From positions 124,001-188,000 of the forward strand of contig NZ_FNSC01000001.1 of NCBI RefSeq assembly GCF_900105355.1: a DNA stretch of 64,000 bases, in the 5' to 3' direction. Of the stretch, positions 19,617-28,111 are shown piece after piece. Source of the stretch: Pseudomonas anguilliseptica. Its GTDB lineage: Bacteria > Pseudomonadota > Gammaproteobacteria > Pseudomonadales > Pseudomonadaceae. The first letter of the stretch is position 1; each line of letters begins with the position of its first letter. Made by a program: the position numbers and the translations under genes. The notes under the pieces are model-generated. The model was not told the origin of the DNA. It made no database searches and worked only from the letters and a program-made list of their open reading frames with translations.

Positions 19617-20933
19617 TTAGAATACGTACTGCAGGCGACCGATGATGGCTTTGCCGTCGTCTTGCACGTTTTCACCACCCACTTGCGAGTTGGTGTTGAG
19701 GTTATCTACTTCGTAGTCAACATAGTTCAGGCTCATGCGTACAGCCGGAGTAGCAAAGTAGTTCACACCGACCACCATGGCATTGGCAGTGAATTCATCG
19801 CTCAGATCATCAGCGACCACGCCAACCACACCGCCCATCATCTGAGCAGGAATGGCACTTTCGTCAGCATCAACAGTGTTGCTTTCGTAGCGTGCAAATA
19901 CTTCAAAAGTACCCTTCATATCGGTTGGCTTGTCCCACTTGCCGGCACCGGCTTTGTAGTTACGAGCGCCACCAATCATGTAAGACACCTGAGCGGAGTA
20001 ACCGCTAGCATCCACGTCGGCATCAAGCCCACCAGCAGTCTCGCCGGAAACCTGACGCTGAAAGTATTCAGCAGCAGCGCGGAACGAACCGAACTGAGCA
20101 CCGGCTTCCAACACCCACTCAGAGTCTTTGTCGGTATCGGCGGTAGAACCAAAGGCTATGCGCGCGTCCTCATCACTGCGGATGCCCATGCGAGTACGCA
20201 CGTTGGCAGTGTTATCGTCCGGGCTGCTGCTGTGGTAGTTAGCACCCAGGTGGATCACATCGGTGCCATCCAGGTATGGTGCCCAATTGGCGCGCAGGGT
20301 GTAGCCGTACAGCTCGTCGTTGTCGTCGCTCTCATACTGATCGTAGTGGGCAACCTGAGCCATCAGGCCGTAGTTGTCGCCGGCGTGCATAACGTTGACA
20401 CCGAACTTGGCATCTTCGTCGCCATTGAGGAAGTCATACATAAACGGACGTTCGATGGCAGTGATCCAGGACGAACTGGTGGTGCCTTCCAGGCCGTAGT
20501 CGACACCGAACTGGCCAACGGTCACGTCGGCAAAACCCAGGCCGCTGTAGGTGATATAGGCACGATCGAAGTCGGTGCCCTCATCTTCGTCATAGCTGAC
20601 ACGCAGGCCATAGCCCCAGTCCTTGTAGGCAACGCCTTCAAAACCGACTTCACCGCGACGGATAAAGGTGTTGAAGGTGTCATCGAACGGATCGTTCTGC
20701 GTACCGGCCATCAGACCGTCAAAGTTGGTGGCATCCCACTGCAGCTTGCCGCCGAGTTTGAAGCTGAACTCTTTGTCAGTGGTAGCGACTTCCAGGCCAC
20801 CCTTGGTTTTGATCACGATATCGGCGCCGTCAGTGGTGACGGTACCGGCGAAAGCCTGGGCGGAAACGGCCAGGGCCAGAGCGCTGGTAGCGAAGCCGGC
20901 CATTACTCCACGAAAGCTGTGCTTACGGATCAT
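19617..20933 (-). CDS. Outer-membrane porin, OprO/OprP type
   Basis: A 438-residue porin with a signal peptide (ALALAVSAQAFA) and the Porin_O_P layout: an N-terminal strand FKLGGKLQWDATNFDG, repeated amphipathic strands rich in Asp, Gly, Tyr, and a C-terminal aromatic residue (RLQYVF) needed for membrane insertion. OprO/OprP are phosphate/polyphosphate channels, but phosphate selectivity depends on a lysine cluster I cannot confirm. AGAGGAA precedes the ATG. I see no full PhoB box upstream, so phosphate control is not supported. Confidence 0.88.
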   Translation of the reverse strand: MIRKHSFRGVMAGFATSALALAVSAQAFAGTVTTDGADIVIKTKGGLEVATTDKEFSFKLGGKLQWDATNFDGLMAGTQNDPFDDTFNTFIRRGEVGFEGVAYKDWGYGLRVSYDEDEGTDFDRAYITYSGLGFADVTVGQFGVDYGLEGTTSSSWITAIERPFMYDFLNGDEDAKFGVNVMHAGDNYGLMAQVAHYDQYESDDNDELYGYTLRANWAPYLDGTDVIHLGANYHSSSPDDNTANVRTRMGIRSDEDARIAFGSTADTDKDSEWVLEAGAQFGSFRAAAEYFQRQVSGETAGGLDADVDASGYSAQVSYMIGGARNYKAGAGKWDKPTDMKGTFEVFARYESNTVDADESAIPAQMMGGVVGVVADDLSDEFTANAMVVGVNYFATPAVRMSLNYVDYEVDNLNTNSQVGGENVQDDGKAIIGRLQYVF

Positions 20934-21124
20934 CGAAGATTCCTCTAAATGGACTTTTAAGTGTTGAAAACACCCGAGCGCTGGGGCTCGTTCGTGCTGG
21001 AGGGAATCTTGGCGGCGGGATATTTCACGGCAGTTGCTGATATATAAATATTTGATTACAGCGGAACTTTTTACTTCCTTTGCCTATAAGCAGTGAGAAC
21101 TGCTCTAGACCGGCCTTTGCCAAC

Positions 21125-21152
21125 GGCCCGCACGCCCTTGCAGCGGCGGGCC
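21125..21152 (-). terminator. Hairpin at the end of the hvf operon
   Basis: GGCCCGC (21125-21131) pairs with GCGGGCC (21146-21152), about 10 bases past the DoxX stop. The T-tract is poor, so its activity as a terminator is inferred from position. Confidence 0.45.
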
Positions 21153-21161
21153 AGGTTTAAC

Positions 21162-21761
21162 TCAAGATTGTTTGCGTAATGCCTTGCCCAGCCAGTAATC
21201 CAGGCTTAGCCAACGCCCGGCGCCGCTGAAAAACAGCGCCACCAGCATTACCAGGTAGGTGGCGGCAAACTCGATGCCGTTGTTCAGCACCACCAGCTTG
21301 CCGCTGCTGGTCAGCCAATCGTAATTACCATGCTCCTTGAGCAGCTCACGGGCCCGCGCAATTTTCTCTACCGAGTCCATGACCCGTTCATTGGCAAACG
21401 GCGCGCTGGCATCGGCAATCGCCTGCCAACCGTAGGGCAGGTGTACGGCGAAGATCGCCACCAGCATGGTGACAATCAACGGAATACTGACCCAGCGCAC
21501 CGCCAGGCCAAACAACAGCAGCAGCGCCCCGCCCACCTCGGTCAGCGCCGCCGCCCAGGCCAGCAGCTCGGGGGATGGCAGGCCCAGGCCCCAATCCGGG
21601 TTGCCGAACCAGGCGGCGGTTGCGTCGATGTCCGCCAGCTTGTGCATGCCGGCCATCCAGAACACGGGCACCAGGTACAGACGCAGCAATAACGGCCCGA
21701 GAAAATCCAGGCGACGGGTAGCATCCAGGGCATCCTGGAGACGATTGAAAAAGCTCAGCAT
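21162..21761 (-). CDS. DoxX-family membrane protein of the hvf operon
   Basis: A 199-residue DoxX protein with four hydrophobic spans (LLRLYLVPVFWMAGMHKL; AWAAALTEVGGALLLLFGLAV; IPLIVTMLVAIFAVHL; YLVMLVALFFSGAGRW). DoxX proteins are frequent partners of HvfABC (bufferin) loci and are thought to handle redox chemistry or membrane steps; the precise role is unknown. GGAG lies 7 bases before the ATG. It is the last gene of the operon, 45 bases after hvfC. Confidence 0.85.
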   Translation of the reverse strand: MLSFFNRLQDALDATRRLDFLGPLLLRLYLVPVFWMAGMHKLADIDATAAWFGNPDWGLGLPSPELLAWAAALTEVGGALLLLFGLAVRWVSIPLIVTMLVAIFAVHLPYGWQAIADASAPFANERVMDSVEKIARARELLKEHGNYDWLTSSGKLVVLNNGIEFAATYLVMLVALFFSGAGRWLSLDYWLGKALRKQS

Positions 21762-21806
21762 GGGATATCTCCACAGGTCGGCACTGTCGGTGCCGGGGTC
21801 AGTTAA

Positions 21807-22514
21807 TTAATCGCTTGGGGGTTGCCATATACCTTGGCGCTGCCAGTCCGCCAGCAGGCTCTGGGCATTGCTGAAGTAGTGTTTGTCCGCGGCTAAGCCC
21901 TGGCTCTGAGCCAGGTCGTACAGGGCCGAATTGGCTTCTGCTCCTGCTTGCAGGCGCGCCGCCAACTGATAGGCAAAGGGGCTGAGTTGCATAAAGCGCA
22001 CCTTGTCCTGCACATCTCGCCAGACCAACAGGCAGGTTGGCTCACCAGGCGGCGTGGCAGGTTGAAAATCAGCACCAATGCGCTGCACCGGCCACTGATA
22101 CGCTAGCGGCCAGACCAGTGGCGACCAGCCCTGCGCAGGCAGCTCGGCCTCACTGACATCCAGCGCCAGCTCAACCCATTCGTAATGCGCCAGTTCGAGG
22201 ATAAACGGCGGATCGCCAGCCTCGGCGACATAGCCCTGCTGCAACCAGGCGAGAAACTCCTGGCTGATCTGCAAGAAATACGGCGTGCGCGCCTGATGCT
22301 CAGCGATAAAGCTGCGCAACAAACGCTGCCACCGACTGGCCTCGATCAGCCGGTGCAGCACCGGAAAGGCGCCGCTGATAAAGCCTTCGATATTGTTGAA
22401 GAACAACGCTTCGTAGATCGCCATCCGCTCGGCCGTAACGCCCTCAAGCAGCGGCTGCTCTACCGGCTGGCGAATACGCGCGGCAAACGCGCGTTGCGCG
22501 TCAACGCCACTCAT
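21807..22514 (-). CDS. hvfC: HvfC/BufC-type RiPP maturation partner (DUF2063)
   Basis: A 235-residue protein of the DUF2063 family, often mislabelled 'putative DNA-binding'. The N-terminal helical domain (RAFAARIRQPVEQPLLEGVTAERMAIYEALFFNNIEGFISGAFPVLHRLI) is typical. Family members partner the DUF692 oxidase HvfB and bring it the precursor peptide. Its ATG overlaps the hvfB stop (ATGA at 22511-22514), so the two are translationally coupled. Confidence 0.88.
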   Translation of the reverse strand: MSGVDAQRAFAARIRQPVEQPLLEGVTAERMAIYEALFFNNIEGFISGAFPVLHRLIEASRWQRLLRSFIAEHQARTPYFLQISQEFLAWLQQGYVAEAGDPPFILELAHYEWVELALDVSEAELPAQGWSPLVWPLAYQWPVQRIGADFQPATPPGEPTCLLVWRDVQDKVRFMQLSPFAYQLAARLQAGAEANSALYDLAQSQGLAADKHYFSNAQSLLADWQRQGIWQPPSD

Positions 22515-23353
22515 GTTCCGTAACTCCGCACAGGAGCCGCAGCCGCTTGCAGCTGGCGAATCTTCGCCACCTCGGCATACAGATCGGCAATCGGAGGGAA
22601 GTTGAAATCGCGCTCCAGCAAGGTCGGGCGCACGCCATGCACGGCGTAGGCCTGTTCCAGCAGCGCCCAGACCGGATCAATCACGGGCGCGCCGTGGGTG
22701 TCGATCTTCAGATCACTGGCCTCATCGTAATGCCCGGCCACATGCAGATAGGCGATGCGCGCACTGGGCATGCTGGCGATATACGCCTGCGCATCGAAGT
22801 TGAAATTGATGCTGTTGACGAAGACGTTGTTCACATCCAGCAACAGCTGGCAGTCAGCTCGCTCCAACACCGCGCAGACAAACGCCGCTTCATCCAGCTC
22901 GCCCGGCAGCTGTGCATAGGCCGACACATTCTCGATGATCAACGGCCGCTCCAGCACGTCCTGCACGATGCGCACCCGTTCGGCAATGCGCAGCACCGAT
23001 TCCTCGGAAAATGGCAGCGGCATCAGGTCATATAACTGGCCATGGTCAGCGCAGGCCGACAGATGCTCGCTGTAACCGCGCACCGCATGCAGGTCGAGAA
23101 AGCCCTTGATGGCCTTGAGCAGTTCGATATCCAGCGGCGCAAAGCCACCGAGATTGAGGGACAGGCCATGGCAGAGCAGCGGCAGGCGCTCGCTCAGGGC
23201 ACGCAACTGCTTGCCCAGGCGCCCGCCCACGCCGATCCAGTTCTCCGGTGCCACTTCGAGGAAATCCACCTCGCCTGCGCTGCAGTCCTGCAGCGCGCCA
23301 AGCAGGCCGCGACGCAAACCCAGCCCGGCACCGTTAACGAAATCTACCTGCAT
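22511..23353 (-). CDS. hvfB: HvfB/BufB-type multinuclear iron oxidase (DUF692)
   Basis: A 280-residue TIM-barrel enzyme of the MNIO (DUF692) family. Candidate iron ligands sit in LCHGLSLNLGG, YSEHLSAC, IENVSAY, LLLDVNNVFVNSINF, YLHVAGH and IDTHGAPV. Characterised relatives in the same gene arrangement convert cysteines of the precursor into copper-binding oxazolone/thioamide groups, using iron and oxygen. hvfA lies 20 bases upstream and hvfC overlaps its end. Confidence 0.9.
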   Translation of the reverse strand: MQVDFVNGAGLGLRRGLLGALQDCSAGEVDFLEVAPENWIGVGGRLGKQLRALSERLPLLCHGLSLNLGGFAPLDIELLKAIKGFLDLHAVRGYSEHLSACADHGQLYDLMPLPFSEESVLRIAERVRIVQDVLERPLIIENVSAYAQLPGELDEAAFVCAVLERADCQLLLDVNNVFVNSINFNFDAQAYIASMPSARIAYLHVAGHYDEASDLKIDTHGAPVIDPVWALLEQAYAVHGVRPTLLERDFNFPPIADLYAEVAKIRQLQAAAAPVRSYGT

Positions 23354-23373
23354 ATCCTGCCCCTGATTCTCAG

Positions 23374-23670
23374 TTATTCGGCTTTGTCAGCGCCGCACTT
23401 GCCTTCACCGCACTTACCTTCGCCATCAGCCTTGGCTTCGCCACCGCATTTACCCTCGCCACACTTGCCTTCGCCTTCGGCTTTCTTCATTTCGCCACCG
23501 CATTTGCCTTCACCGCAGCTGCCTTCAGCGGTTTTCTCAACCGCAGCCAGGCTGTAGCCGCTGCTCAGTTCCTGCGCGGCAAACGGGTTGCTCGCGGCCT
23601 GCACGCTCAATGCAGCGCTGCTCAGCAGTACCGCGCCCAGGGATGCAACAACAGTGTTCAGATGGTTCAT
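23374..23670 (-). CDS. hvfA: HvfA/bufferin-type RiPP precursor, Cys-rich
   Basis: A 98-residue precursor. It has a signal peptide (NTVVASLGAVLLSSAALSVQA), a spacer (NPFAAQELSSGYSLAA) and a C-terminal core with one EGSCG and five EGKCG motifs arranged in three pairs, giving six Cys. In this family the EGKCG cysteines are oxidised by HvfB and the secreted product binds copper. ATG 23670 begins the signal peptide, with GGAG 7 bases upstream; the open frame extends 18 codons further without support. First gene of hvfABC-doxX. Confidence 0.9.
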   Translation of the reverse strand: MNHLNTVVASLGAVLLSSAALSVQAASNPFAAQELSSGYSLAAVEKTAEGSCGEGKCGGEMKKAEGEGKCGEGKCGGEAKADGEGKCGEGKCGADKAE

Positions 23671-23698
23671 GACAACGCTCCAATAATCGTTAACAGTG

Positions 23699-23714
23699 GT
23701 AGCCGATTGGCTAC
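23699..23714 (-). promoter_or_regulatory. Short palindrome in the hvfA 5' leader
   Basis: GTAGCC-GATT-GGCTAC, a perfect 6-bp stem with a 4-base loop, lies between the predicted promoter and the hvfA ribosome site. It could be an RNA hairpin or a protein operator; the sequence does not decide which. Confidence 0.4.
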
Positions 23715-23726
23715 CTCGGCCCAATA

Positions 23727-23752
23727 GACGGAGTCGATCAGCAACTGTTACA
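23727..23752 (-). promoter_or_regulatory. ECF-sigma-like promoter of hvfA
   Basis: On the minus strand TGTAAC (23752-23747) and CGTC (23730-23727) are separated by 16 bases, matching the common -35/-10 pattern of extracytoplasmic-function sigma factors. The -10 is 57 bases upstream of the hvfA ATG. ECF control of hvf/bufferin operons is known in other bacteria; the sigma factor itself is not in this window. Confidence 0.5.
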
Positions 23753-23918
23753 CCTCATGGAAAAATATTTCATAGGCAGCTGCAGCCCACGCTCGAAGAC
23801 GTTGCAGTCCCTATGCCGATAAACGTCTTTAATCCGCGAAGATTTTTGCCGCCGGCCAACTGATCCGGCACACTACGCCCCCCGAGCAAATGCTCGTTTT
23901 AAAGCCTGCAGACTCCGT

Positions 23919-26402
23919 ATGACCCGATCTCCGCTTCGCCGTCTCGTTTTTGGCACCCTGCGCCGCGTGCTGTACCTCTGGGTGCGCTCGGAAACCATCA
24001 ACCAGTCCGCCTTTACCCTCAAGCTCGACCGCAGCAAGCCGGTGTTCTACGTGCTGCAACAGCCGTCGCTGAGTGACCTGGCGGTGGTCGATACGGAGTG
24101 CCGCAAGGCCGGCCTGCCGCGCCCGGTGCTGCCGGTGGCCGTGGGTGAGCTGCTGGAGCCTGCCGCCTTCTTCTACCTGACGCCTGAGCCCGACTGGCTC
24201 GGCCGGCAGGACAAACGCGGCATCTCGCCGACCCTGCAACGCCTGGTCAGCGCGTTGAGCCAGCATGCGGTGGACGATGCGCAAATCATTCCGGTCAGCG
24301 TGTTCTGGGGCCAGTCGCCCGACCGTGAAACCAGCCCGTGGAAGCTGCTGTTCGCAGACAGCTGGGCGGTCACCGGGCGACTGCGCCGGCTGGTGAGCAT
24401 TCTGATTCTCGGCCGCAAGACCCGCGTGCAGTTCTCCACGCCGATTCATCTGCGCGAGCTGGTCGAGCAGGACAAAGGCCACGAGCGCACCCTGCGCATG
24501 GTTCAGCGCATCCTGCGCGTGCACTTCCGCAACCAGAAGGCCGCGGTCATCGGCCCGGACGTGTCGCACCGGCGCAACCTGGTCAAGGGGCTGGTGTATG
24601 GCCCGCAGGTGCGTCAGTCGATCATCGAAGAAGCCGAACGCGAGAACATCAGCCTGGAGAAGGCCGAAAGCCAGGCCCTACGCTATGGCAACGAGATCGC
24701 CTCGGACTACACCTACACCGCCATCCGCTTCCTCGAACTGGTGCTGAGCTGGTTCTGGAACAAGATCTACGACGGCATCAAGGTCAATCATATCGAGGGC
24801 GTGCAGGAAGTCGCCCAGGGCCATGAGGTGATCTATGTGCCCTGTCACCGCAGCCATATCGACTACCTGCTGCTGTCCTACCTGTTGTTCCGCAACGGCC
24901 TGACGCCGCCGCATATCGCCGCTGGCATCAACCTCAACATGCCGGTGATCGGCGGTCTGCTGCGCCGTGGTGGTGCGTTCTTTATGCGCCGCACCTTCAA
25001 GGGCAACCCGCTGTACACCGCAGTGTTCAACGAATACCTGCATACCCTGTTCAGCAAGGGCTTCCCGGTCGAATACTTCGTTGAAGGCGGACGTTCGCGT
25101 ACCGGGCGTATGCTGCAACCGAAAACCGGCATGCTAGCCATCACCATGCGCAGTTTCCTGCGCAGCAATCGCCTGCCAGTGGTGTTTGTGCCGGTGTATA
25201 TCGGCTACGAGCGCGTGCTGGAAGGCCGCACTTACCTGGGCGAGCTGCGCGGCGCGAGCAAGAAAAAGGAGTCGATCTTCGACATCTTCAAGGTCATCGG
25301 TGCGCTCAAGCAGCGCTTTGGTCATGTCTGGGTCAACTTCGGTGAGCCGATCAAGCTGGCAGAATTCCTCGACAACGAGCAGCCGAACTGGCGCGAACAG
25401 GATTACGGCACCCAGTACCGCCCGACCTGGCTCAATGAAGCCACCAACAACCTCGGCGACCGCGTGGCCCAGCACCTCAACGAGGCGGCAGCGATCAACC
25501 CGGTCAATCTGGTGGCCCTGGCGCTGCTCTCCACCAGCAAGCTGGCGCTGGACGAACGCGCCCTGTCGCGTGTGCTCGACCTGTATCTAGCCCTACTGCG
25601 CAGCGTGCCCTACTCGCCGCACACCACCCTGCCGGACGGCAACGGCCAGGCGCTGATCGAATACGTGCAGAAGATGGATCTGCTCGCCGAACAGAAGGAC
25701 GCCCTCGGCAAGATCCTCTATCTGGACGAGCAAAACGCCGTTCTGATGACCTACTACCGCAACAACGTGCTGCACATCTTTGCCCTGCCGGCGTTGCTGG
25801 CGAGCTTCTTCCAGAGCAGCGCCCGGATGAGCCGCGAGCAGATCCTGCGCTTTACCCGCGCGCTCTACCCCTACCTGCAAGCCGAACTGTTTATCCGCTG
25901 GAACCTGGATGAGCTGGGCGGTGTGGTTGATCAATGGCTAGCCGCCTTCGTTGAACAGGGCCTGCTCAAGCTCGATGGCGACATGTACGTGCGTCCGGTG
26001 CCCAGCTCGCGCGAGTTCGTTCTGCTCACCCTGCTGGCCCGCGCCATTGTGCAAACCCTGCAGCGCTTCTATATGGCCACCGCCCTGCTGCTGAATGCCG
26101 GACAGAACGCCATCAGCGCCGAAGAATTGGAAGACCTCTGCACCGTGATGGCCCAGCGCCTGTCGATTCTGCATGGCCTCAACGCCCCGGAGTTCTTCGA
26201 CAAGAGCCTATTCCGCCACTTTATCCAGAGCCTGCTCGACCAGGGCGTGCTGCGTCAGGACGAAGCCGGCAAGCTCAGCCACCACCCGCTGCTCAGCGAA
26301 CTGGCTGAAGGTGCCGCCAAGCGCGTGCTGCCGGCAGAAATTCGCCTGTCGATTCGCCAAGTGGCCATGGATCGCAACGAGGATGTCGCCGAGCCGGTGT
26401 AA
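23919..26402 (+). CDS. plsB: Glycerol-3-phosphate 1-O-acyltransferase
   Basis: An 827-residue inner-membrane enzyme that acylates sn-glycerol-3-phosphate at position 1, the first step of phospholipid synthesis. The acyltransferase block is at about 305-470: PCHRSHIDY (the HX4D motif, His near 310), [25 protein letters not shown] and [15 protein letters not shown], in family order. The length matches E. coli PlsB (about 807). I see no clear ribosome site before ATG 23919. It is divergent from hvfA, 248 bases apart. Confidence 0.95.
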
Positions 26403-26554: not shown

Positions 26555-28111
26555 TTACAGTGGCGTCGTTGGTTGGCAGTTCCAAGGCAGCAGCGCTTCG
26601 TAGGCTTCAACGCTGTTGGCCAGCGGCAGGCGTTCGAGGACATGGCGCAACCAGGCGTAGGGCTCCTGGCCATTGGTCTTGGCGGTTTCCACCAGGCTGT
26701 AGAGTTGGGCGCTGGCGGTCGCGCCTTTCGGCGTGTCGCTGAACAGCCAGTTCTTGCGACCTATGACGAAGGGCCGGATCGCGCGCTCGGCAGCGTTGTT
26801 ATCGATCGGCAGGTGGCCAGCCTCGATGTAGCGTTCGAGTCGGCTCCAGTTGCTCGCCAGGTAGTTCACTGCTTTGCCCAGGGCATTCTGCGCCGTGACC
26901 TGCGGCTGGGTTTTCTCCAGCCAGGTCTTGAGCTGATCGAGGAGCGGTAGGCTGTGCTGCTGGCGGCCCCGGTAGCGCTGTTCATCGCTGGCATCCTTAA
27001 GTTCGCGCTCGATGCCGTAGAGCTTGTTGATCATCCCCAACGCGATGTCGGCACGCCCGGTTTTGCCCTTCGGTTGCACCTTTTGCGCTTCGACGAACTT
27101 GCGCCGCGCATGCGCCCAGCAGGCCAGGCGCTCAACACCTTGTTGTGCGGCCACGGCGTTGTAGCCGGCGTAATCGTCGGTCATCAGGTAGCCGCGATAA
27201 CCGTCGAGCAGGCGCAGCGGCACCTCCTGCGCGCGGCTGGTTGTGTAGTCGAAGAGGATCACCGGTTTGCCAGGCGGGCCACCGGTCTGCACCCACATCC
27301 AGGAGTGGCTGCTCGGATCGCGCCCAGGCTCCTTGAGCACCTGCACGCGGGTTTCATCGCAGTGGATCACCGGACTGTCCAGCAGCCTGTCGCGCATCAG
27401 GTTGAGCAACGGTTGTAGCAGTTCGCCGCACTGGATCACCCAGCGCGCCAGGGTCTGCCGGGGGATGTCGATGCCATGGCGACTGAGCATCTTTTCGAAG
27501 CGATACAGTGGGATGCCGTCGGCGTATTTGCTGGTCAGCAGCATCGCCAGCACGCTCGGGCTGGCCAGGCTTTTCTCGATCAGTTGGGCCGGCTTGTCAG
27601 CGGTGACCGGCGCGCTTTCGCAGGCCTTGCAGGCATAGGTCTTGCGAATGTGGCGGATCACCTGAACCTGCATCGGGATGATTTCCAGCTGCTCGCTGGT
27701 TTCTTCGCCGATGGCCTGCTTGCGGCAACCGCATTCGCAGGTCAGTTCGTGTTCGGGCAGTTCGTGGATGACCTCGACACGCGGTAGTTCGGCCGGTAAC
27801 GGCTTGCGCTTGCCGCGGCGCTTGGTCGGCGCAACGACTTCTTCCTCGACCTCAGCGGCCGGAGCTTCAGCCGCCGCTTCGGCCAGGCTTTCCGCTTCGT
27901 TGAACATCTCTAGCTGCGGTGAATCCGGGTCGCTGCTCTGCTCGGATTTACGGCCGAACAGGCGCTGGATCAACAGCGCGTTTTGTTCGCGCAGGCGCTC
28001 GATCTGCCCATCCTTGTCCTTGGCCAATTCCTGCGCCGACGACAACACCTCAGCGAGCAATTGCTTGAGCGCGGCGGGGTCATCAGGAAGGGTTTCGGGC
28101 ACAGAAATCAT
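26555..28111 (-). CDS. tnpC: IS66 transposase TnpC
   Basis: A 518-residue IS66 transposase. The N-terminal coiled segment ([40 protein letters not shown]) is followed by a zinc-finger-like CECGCRK motif, then the DDE core: [10 protein letters not shown] (Asp), DDYAGYNAV, and [24 protein letters not shown] near the C-terminus. The frame is intact and of normal length. Confidence 0.93.

Follow-up and report, generated by a model that had tools for sequence, protein, structure and literature searches.

Closest described systems

The closest described relatives of the hvfABCX operon analysed here, which lies on the minus strand of a 64,000-nucleotide stretch of the Pseudomonas anguilliseptica genome (hereafter the window, C1:124001–188000 of 5.2 Mb; this genome is labelled G000 and its contigs C1 and C2), are oxazolin of Haemophilus influenzae, gonophorin of Neisseria and fontiphorin of Fontimonas thermophila. 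The oxazolin cluster, hvfABCX, encodes the same four proteins, and its HvfA has three paired EGKCG repeats with six modified cysteines (PMC13419390). The Neisseria gonophorin cluster, NMB2140-2145, unites, as related Pseudomonas loci do, the DoxX gene, three further genes of the set, an extracytoplasmic function (ECF) sigma factor and a ZAS anti-sigma factor (PMC13097082, PMC2893595). The fontiphorin cluster, fonABC, is alike in its EGKCG repeats, in an MNIO enzyme with Arg-Arg and Asp249-Phe250 and in a PME1 partner, but has seven sites and, as described, no DoxX gene (PMC13097082). Copper binding is reported for all three peptides (PMC13097082, PMC13419390). Bufferins 1 and 2 follow a similar plan (i.e. 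an exported Cys precursor, an MNIO, a DUF2063 protein and often DoxX; PMC12452194), and Caulobacter buf1 is also under an ECF sigma factor (PMC3511200). However, they differ in precursor family, MNIO subfamily, the NrsF anti-sigma factor and a −10 element CGAA (PMC12452194, PMC3511200).

Regulation has been described in two of these groups. In H. influenzae, RpoE2 (HrsE), an ECF sigma factor with a small ZAS-related anti-sigma factor, controls periplasmic msrAB together with a cluster of doxX, periplasmic-protein, COG3220 and DUF2063 genes; hypochlorite induces this cluster in the wild type but not in an rpoE2 mutant (PMC7907618). From its gene set, we identify that cluster as hvf. In the meningococcus, NMB2140-2145 is under sigma-E together with msrA/msrB, and the genome search reported with it found no more targets (PMC2893595).

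RefSeq contains over 20,000 examples of captophorins, and their describers call for a link to specific molecular function (PMC13097082). We found no description of a sigma–anti-sigma–hvf–msr link in Pseudomonas in the main texts of open-access PMC papers. By its sequence matches, the P. anguilliseptica operon is a member of the described HvfA/oxazolin/Buf_EGKCG/'captophorin' family, and what is added here to that family is its regulation in Pseudomonas: an ECF promoter, sigma/anti-sigma linkage and likely msr co-regulation. We regard it as probable, taken as a whole, that this is an HvfA-type captophorin operon with an ECF promoter read by a sigma factor encoded at 88.2 kb, that it is co-regulated with msr genes and that it responds to oxidants.

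Gene content and modification chemistry

The four genes form a single compact unit (21162–23670, minus strand) with successive intergenic gaps of 20, −4 and 45 nt. They are hvfA (23374–23670, ATG at 23670), encoding a precursor peptide of 98 residues; hvfB (22511–23353), an MNIO (DUF692) maturase of 280 residues; hvfC (21807–22514), a DUF2063/PME1 partner of 235 residues whose start overlaps the hvfB end by ATGA; and hvfX (21162–21761), a DoxX-family membrane protein of 199 residues. NCBIfam models match the HvfA-family domain (NF050137, 62.2 bits, cut-off 19.5), HvfB (NF003818, 407.5 bits, cut-off 360), HvfC (NF050145, 277.4 bits, cut-off 142) and HvfX (NF050144, 228.4 bits, cut-off 80). The HvfA equivalog NF050188 gave 58.1 bits, under its cut-off of 95, which sets this precursor apart from that of H. 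influenzae. A Pfam search of the operon proteins returned PF05114, PF09836 with PF22106, and PF07681, and no match for HvfA. Among PDB entries, HvfB resembles 3BWW (E 1.8e-65) and HvfC 3DEE (E 6.1e-13), and a sequence search gave no solved relative of HvfX. These coordinates and matches agree with the initial annotation, which had recognized the tight minus-strand unit with its ATGA overlap, the DUF692 enzyme, the DUF2063 partner and the DoxX protein. A chance origin of the operon is implausible because it is conserved in relatives.

HvfA is an exported-type precursor with repeated EGKCG motifs, as in HvfA/oxazolin-type captophorins. Export was judged by eye from a likely Sec signal peptide (residues 1–25, 23596–23670, minus strand) with a hydrophobic stretch and VQA-A. 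The core (residues 49–93, 23392–23526, minus strand) contains six motifs with Cys 52, 57, 70, 75, 87 and 92, i.e. one EGSCG and five EGKCG in the order EGSCG-EGKCG, EGKCG-EGKCG, EGKCG-EGKCG, with pairs 17–18 residues apart. The six motifs in three pairs had been noticed before and are read directly in HvfA; the pairing itself is normal for the type (PMC12452194, PMC13419390), and the literature describes two forms of repeat, the 17-residue double-EGKCG one among them (PMC12452194). The earlier suggestion that one molecule may bind several copper ions is compatible with the family matches and the literature.

The first motif is a departure from H. influenzae. In a genus sample of 398 genomes, 164 had an HvfA match at E 1e-6, and the best 30 of these 164 loci were read: 25 are of HvfA type (leader NPFA...QEL..GY.L) and five are fused to EF-hand domains. 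Across the 25 HvfA-type loci (our own included, the others within the range L036–L059 and L061), the first motif is EGSCG in 22, EGACG in three and EGKCG in none (HvfA residue 51), while the motifs number seven in two loci, six in 16, five in three and four in four. Precursors that do open with EGKCG are the five EF-hand types and L201–L203 (Halopseudomonas and P. neustonica). A literature search for mention of an EGSCG motif found none. FonBC accepts Ala, Arg or Thr at that motif position in vitro (PMC13097082); therefore, the first HvfA cysteine may well be modified too.

As in captophorins, an HvfB-type MNIO stands beside a PME1 partner. Arg14-Arg15, Asn175, Asp218/His220 and Asp249-Phe250 are invariant in 8/8 aligned HvfBs. 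Their correspondence to published residues was assigned by motif context, with Arg14/Arg15 and Phe250 equated with substrate contacts and Asp249 with the proposed base (PMC13097082, PMC13419390), and Asp218/His220 equated with Asp242/His244 of H. influenzae HvfB via the DTHG context. The oxazolone/thioamide groups once assigned to oxazolin have been reassigned to 5-thiooxazole (PMC13097082; also by the describers of oxazolin, PMC13419390), a group shown for fontiphorin and gonophorin (PMC13097082), and the mass change remains −4 Da per cysteine. Cysteine modification by the DUF692/DUF2063 pair, as first proposed for this locus, would thus follow the family mechanism and keep its −4 Da per cysteine, with 5-thiooxazole in place of the oxazolone/thioamide groups then named.

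The label 'bufferin type', also given at first, has to be dropped under the narrow definition (a BufA1/DUF2282 or BufA2 precursor). No DUF2282 or BufA2 match to the precursor was found in NCBIfam or Pfam, and the BufB maturase model NF050167 gives 247.8 bits for this MNIO, under its cut-off of 310. Nor is it of methanobactin type, since MbnB (TIGR04159) scores 38 bits against 325. The same genome holds bufferin-type loci elsewhere: an MNIO cluster with a BufA2 precursor (NF050166, 96 bits, cut-off 60) at C1:1488000-1497500, and a BufB-type MNIO (351.6 bits, cut-off 310) with a DoxX-like gene and a precursor under cut-off at C1:3488500-3498500.

A conserved ECF-type promoter before hvfA

Upstream of hvfA lie a −35 element TGTAAC (23747–23752, minus strand), conserved in relatives, and, 16 nt past it, a −10 element CGTCTA (23725–23730, minus strand); position 23752, the end of the stretch that was first noted, is the first base of this −35. 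Read from its sequence, TGTAAC-N16-CGTCTA has the form of ECF promoters, e.g. TGTAAC/CGWC of Bacillus subtilis SigX (PMC12153292), GTAACC-N16-CGAA of Caulobacter sigma-F (PMC3511200) and GTMAGBWTT/CGTCTAAH, with 12–13 nt between, of neisserial sigma-E (PMC2893595). The −10 CGTCTA is shared with Neisseria, but the −35 differs (GTMAGBWTT versus TGTAAC). Within the 25 HvfA-type loci, 23 have TGTAA(C/T)-N16-N(G/A)TC at 73–84 nt before the start codon, and the remaining two (L039 and L040) have ACTCTA as −10; genome G291 likewise has the hvfA promoter. In 15 non-redundant upstream sequences (<90% alike), the mean majority-base fraction is 0.99 in the −35 and 0.93 in the −10, compared with 0.55 in the spacer and 0.59 elsewhere. 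A scan of 20700–24200 found no sigma-70 promoter.

Two further elements lie in the leader: a block CGAGG-NN-GCCA soon after the −10 (23708–23718, minus strand), and a likely ribosome binding site TTGGAG (23678–23683, minus strand) read by eye, whose GGAG is invariant in 21/21 leaders. The block follows the −10 in most HvfA-type loci and is absent from msrB leaders. A consensus fold of 21 distinct leaders gave no pair that would make an RNA hairpin in the block; single leader sequences do fold.

The ECF promoter is absent at the five EF-hand loci and at four loci with a third kind of precursor (L268–L271, in G045, G364, G077 and G025), which is short, has EGKCG repeats behind a leader EPL..GYQLA and lacks both EF-hand and NPFA leader. 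Separately, locus L273 (G270:C54:14600-17600) has an hvfA-type promoter before a short precursor match with an in-frame stop, probably a broken gene.

A linked sigma factor and ZAS anti-sigma factor

Sigma70_r4_2 has 18 matches in the genome, 15 of them above cut-off, and some of these are not sigma factors. One is an ECF sigma gene at C1:88.2 kb (L089, 3199–3813), 59 kb from hvfA, which is overlapped by a 77-residue open reading frame (ORF) with C4-X25-H-X3-C-X2-C. This fits the ZAS motif, C/H-X23-26-H-X3-C-X2-C (PMC7907618), so that a small zinc-type (ZAS) anti-sigma factor is predicted to adjoin the sigma factor.

A homologue of this sigma factor (E 1e-40) is present in 28/28 genomes with an NPFA-leader precursor (those read, i.e. 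the genomes of the 25 loci plus G194, G280 and G291) versus 200/370 others, and is absent from G045, G364, G077 and G025, which carry the short, promoter-less precursor. Its distance from hvfA is 6 kb or less in 20 of the 28 genomes and 31–59 kb in three; in the other five it is on another contig. The order at L179 is ketoacyl-synthase-like gene, sigma, anti-sigma, hvfA, hvfB, hvfC, hvfX and porin, hvfC there being a stretch for which the automatic ORF choice fell on the opposite strand. In P. anguilliseptica, the hvfX–porin end is kept in the window and the sigma gene adjoins a ketoacyl-synthase-like gene elsewhere; it therefore seems that the sigma–anti-sigma–hvf unit was broken up in this lineage.

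By analogy, this regulatory setting is likely the Pseudomonas counterpart of the published Haemophilus and Neisseria one. The two are alike in their predicted or known targets and in the kind of anti-sigma factor, and with Neisseria the −10 is shared as well. There are differences too: sigma and anti-sigma genes come first in Pseudomonas and last in Neisseria, and, relative to H. influenzae, the sigma gene stands beside hvf in many Pseudomonas relatives but 59 kb off here. Two other readers were considered and set aside: an NrsF-controlled sigma factor as in Caulobacter, NrsF giving no match in the genome, and SigX, for which papers give no usable Pseudomonas consensus.

Promoter sites before methionine sulfoxide reductase genes

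We scanned the P. anguilliseptica genome for sites that differ from TGTAAC-N16-CGTCTATT at no more than two positions and inspected all 13. Only two have one mismatch or none: that of hvfA (0) and one (1) that lies 56 nt before the msrB of an msrB-msrA pair on C2 (L107), in which both proteins have export-like N-termini. A site with two mismatches lies before an msrA (L108). None of the 13 is at the genome's remaining msrB (C1:4688441) or at the bufferin-type clusters, and the other exact pattern matches (L067–L070) showed no convincing target. The msrB-msrA pair (G000:C2:145500-156500) is on a separate 206-kb contig beside an insertion sequence (IS)-like transposase gene.

From a longer list of sites in relatives, we took ten that were alike or conspicuous. 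The site lies 56–57 nt before the orthologous msrB in all six relatives chosen for it (L169–L174), and the other four (L175–L177 and L185) precede msrA. By sequence, the hvf-type cluster and msr thus appear to share one ECF-type promoter, and this second target, msrA/msrB, is also that of Neisseria (PMC2893595). In G109, G258, G154 and G069, the msrB-type site is 23–34 kb from hvfA on the same contig.

Distribution among relatives

Of the named relatives found, the nearest belong to Pseudomonas; HvfB of P. peli is 93% identical. A search of named genomes gave at least 574 relatives, and among the best 80 of these, sigma and anti-sigma homologues are found in the flank (at most 6 kb) in 12/16 Pseudomonas/Halopseudomonas loci and 0/64 others, some contigs of the latter ending inside the flank. 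The sigma-free set includes Microbulbifer, Xanthomonadaceae, Methylophaga and Shewanella. Precursor starts were placed by a simple hydrophobicity rule at 59/80 loci (15/16 and 44/64, respectively). Within 250 nt of these, GTAA(C/G)-N15-17-NGTC occurs in 13/15 Pseudomonas/Halopseudomonas loci versus 2/44 others (p 2.5e-9, by Fisher tests that treat loci as independent despite relatedness); the two outside loci, L214 and L267, have it farther upstream. EGKCG operons thus exist in sigma-linked and sigma-free forms. Two MNIO homologues (G090:C1:259182-260003 and G017:C1:2163267-2164079) have an in-frame TGA and represent broken genes or sequencing errors.

Proposed mechanism and alternative explanations

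The following sequence of events is proposed. HvfC would present HvfA to HvfB, and this iron enzyme would oxidize up to six HvfA cysteines to 5-thiooxazoles (−4 Da each). HvfA would reach the periplasm via Sec, where its thiols may bind Cu(I), as in the family, with HvfX as an accessory membrane protein. As we infer from the ECF promoter together with the sigma/anti-sigma pair, the likely inducer is oxidant stress: oxidants such as hypochlorite would oxidize the ZAS anti-sigma factor, and the released sigma factor, most likely the 88.2-kb one, would read TGTAAC-N16-CGTCTA before hvfA. The same sigma factor would drive the exported msrB-msrA operon and perhaps the second msrA. A copper-holding peptide and methionine-sulfoxide repair would then be raised together, perhaps because damaged proteins release copper. 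These sequence features place the operon most likely in a regulon for oxidant stress in the envelope and suggest that it is not induced by copper alone. For a broader proposal the chances seem to us about even, namely that in Neisseria, Haemophilus and the Pseudomonas/Halopseudomonas branch alike, an ECF sigma factor with a ZAS anti-sigma factor governs a small, conserved regulon of captophorin and exported Msr that defends the envelope against oxidants, the peptide holding Cu(I) during oxidant attack, when copper is set free from oxidized proteins, while MsrBA carries out repair.

Several observations weigh against oxidant control by the 88.2-kb sigma factor. (i) The 13 genome sites with up to two mismatches are no excess over the 39 of a reversed control, so that conservation and the identity of the genes have to carry the argument. 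(ii) Among 25 genomes (24 relatives and G000), the msrB-type site is found in at least seven and the msrA-type site in at least five. (iii) The sigma factor also occurs in the 200 sampled genomes outside the NPFA class and therefore has other work too. (iv) No convincing autoregulatory site was found upstream of sigma genes in a partial check, which covered 300 nt before one ORF at each of 18 sigma-like loci (the wrong ORF in L074 and L085) and gave one loose match, in L085, on the ORF that is not a sigma gene. (v) The second conserved block, after the −10, is not accounted for.

An alternative, implied by the initial annotation and by the bufferin model, is that the operon is a plain copper buffer, induced by copper and conferring copper tolerance only. 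It could draw on the copper binding of 5-thiooxazole peptides and on the induction of related clusters by copper and gold as well as oxidants (PMC13097082), and Caulobacter buf clusters answer sigma-F under heavy-metal stress (PMC3511200). However, the sharpest conserved elements 5′ of hvfA are the ECF hexamers (no copper-regulator matrix was among the scans), NrsF, the sigma-F partner, is unmatched in the genome, a second promoter of this kind serves methionine-sulfoxide repair, and the genome has bufferin-type clusters besides, at none of the promoter sites. We therefore hold this explanation to be unlikely.

It is slightly less probable still that the promoter is real but is read by another ECF sigma factor (SigX, AlgU or others in the genome). 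The 15 above-cut-off Sigma70_r4_2 matches, even with some not being sigma factors, leave room for one; B. subtilis SigX reads TGTAAC/CGWC (PMC12153292), and the Pseudomonas SigX consensus is undefined (PMC7641640). Nevertheless, in 20/28 genomes no more than 6 kb separates hvfA from a sigma factor of the 88.2-kb type (linkage was looked at for that sigma factor alone), and this sigma factor has a ZAS anti-sigma factor like those described in Neisseria and Haemophilus. Equally doubtful is an oxidant sink, in which HvfA thiooxazole thiols would use up periplasmic hypochlorite or chloramines, with copper secondary: the likely co-regulation with exported MsrBA and the hypochlorite induction of the homologous H. 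influenzae cluster (PMC7907618) would suit it, but fontiphorin, gonophorin and oxazolin are all reported to bind copper, we saw no scavenging data, and six thiols per peptide are a small capacity.

Since hvf and exported msrBA form a conserved pair in environmental Pseudomonas, harmless strains could be used to ask whether the peptide serves against copper, oxidants or oxidant-released copper.

Neighbouring genes

An OprO/OprP-family porin gene (PF07396; window 19617–20933) directly follows hvfX, and the scan of 20700–24200 found a weak terminator-like site (20990–20975) between hvfX and the porin start. A similar porin lies 3′ of hvfX in L179, L180 and L183 and was not seen in L178. After plsB, an ORF of 518 residues (26555–28111) resembles, as we take it, an IS66-type transposase, and a near-identical copy of this stretch lies near a SigX-like gene in L093.

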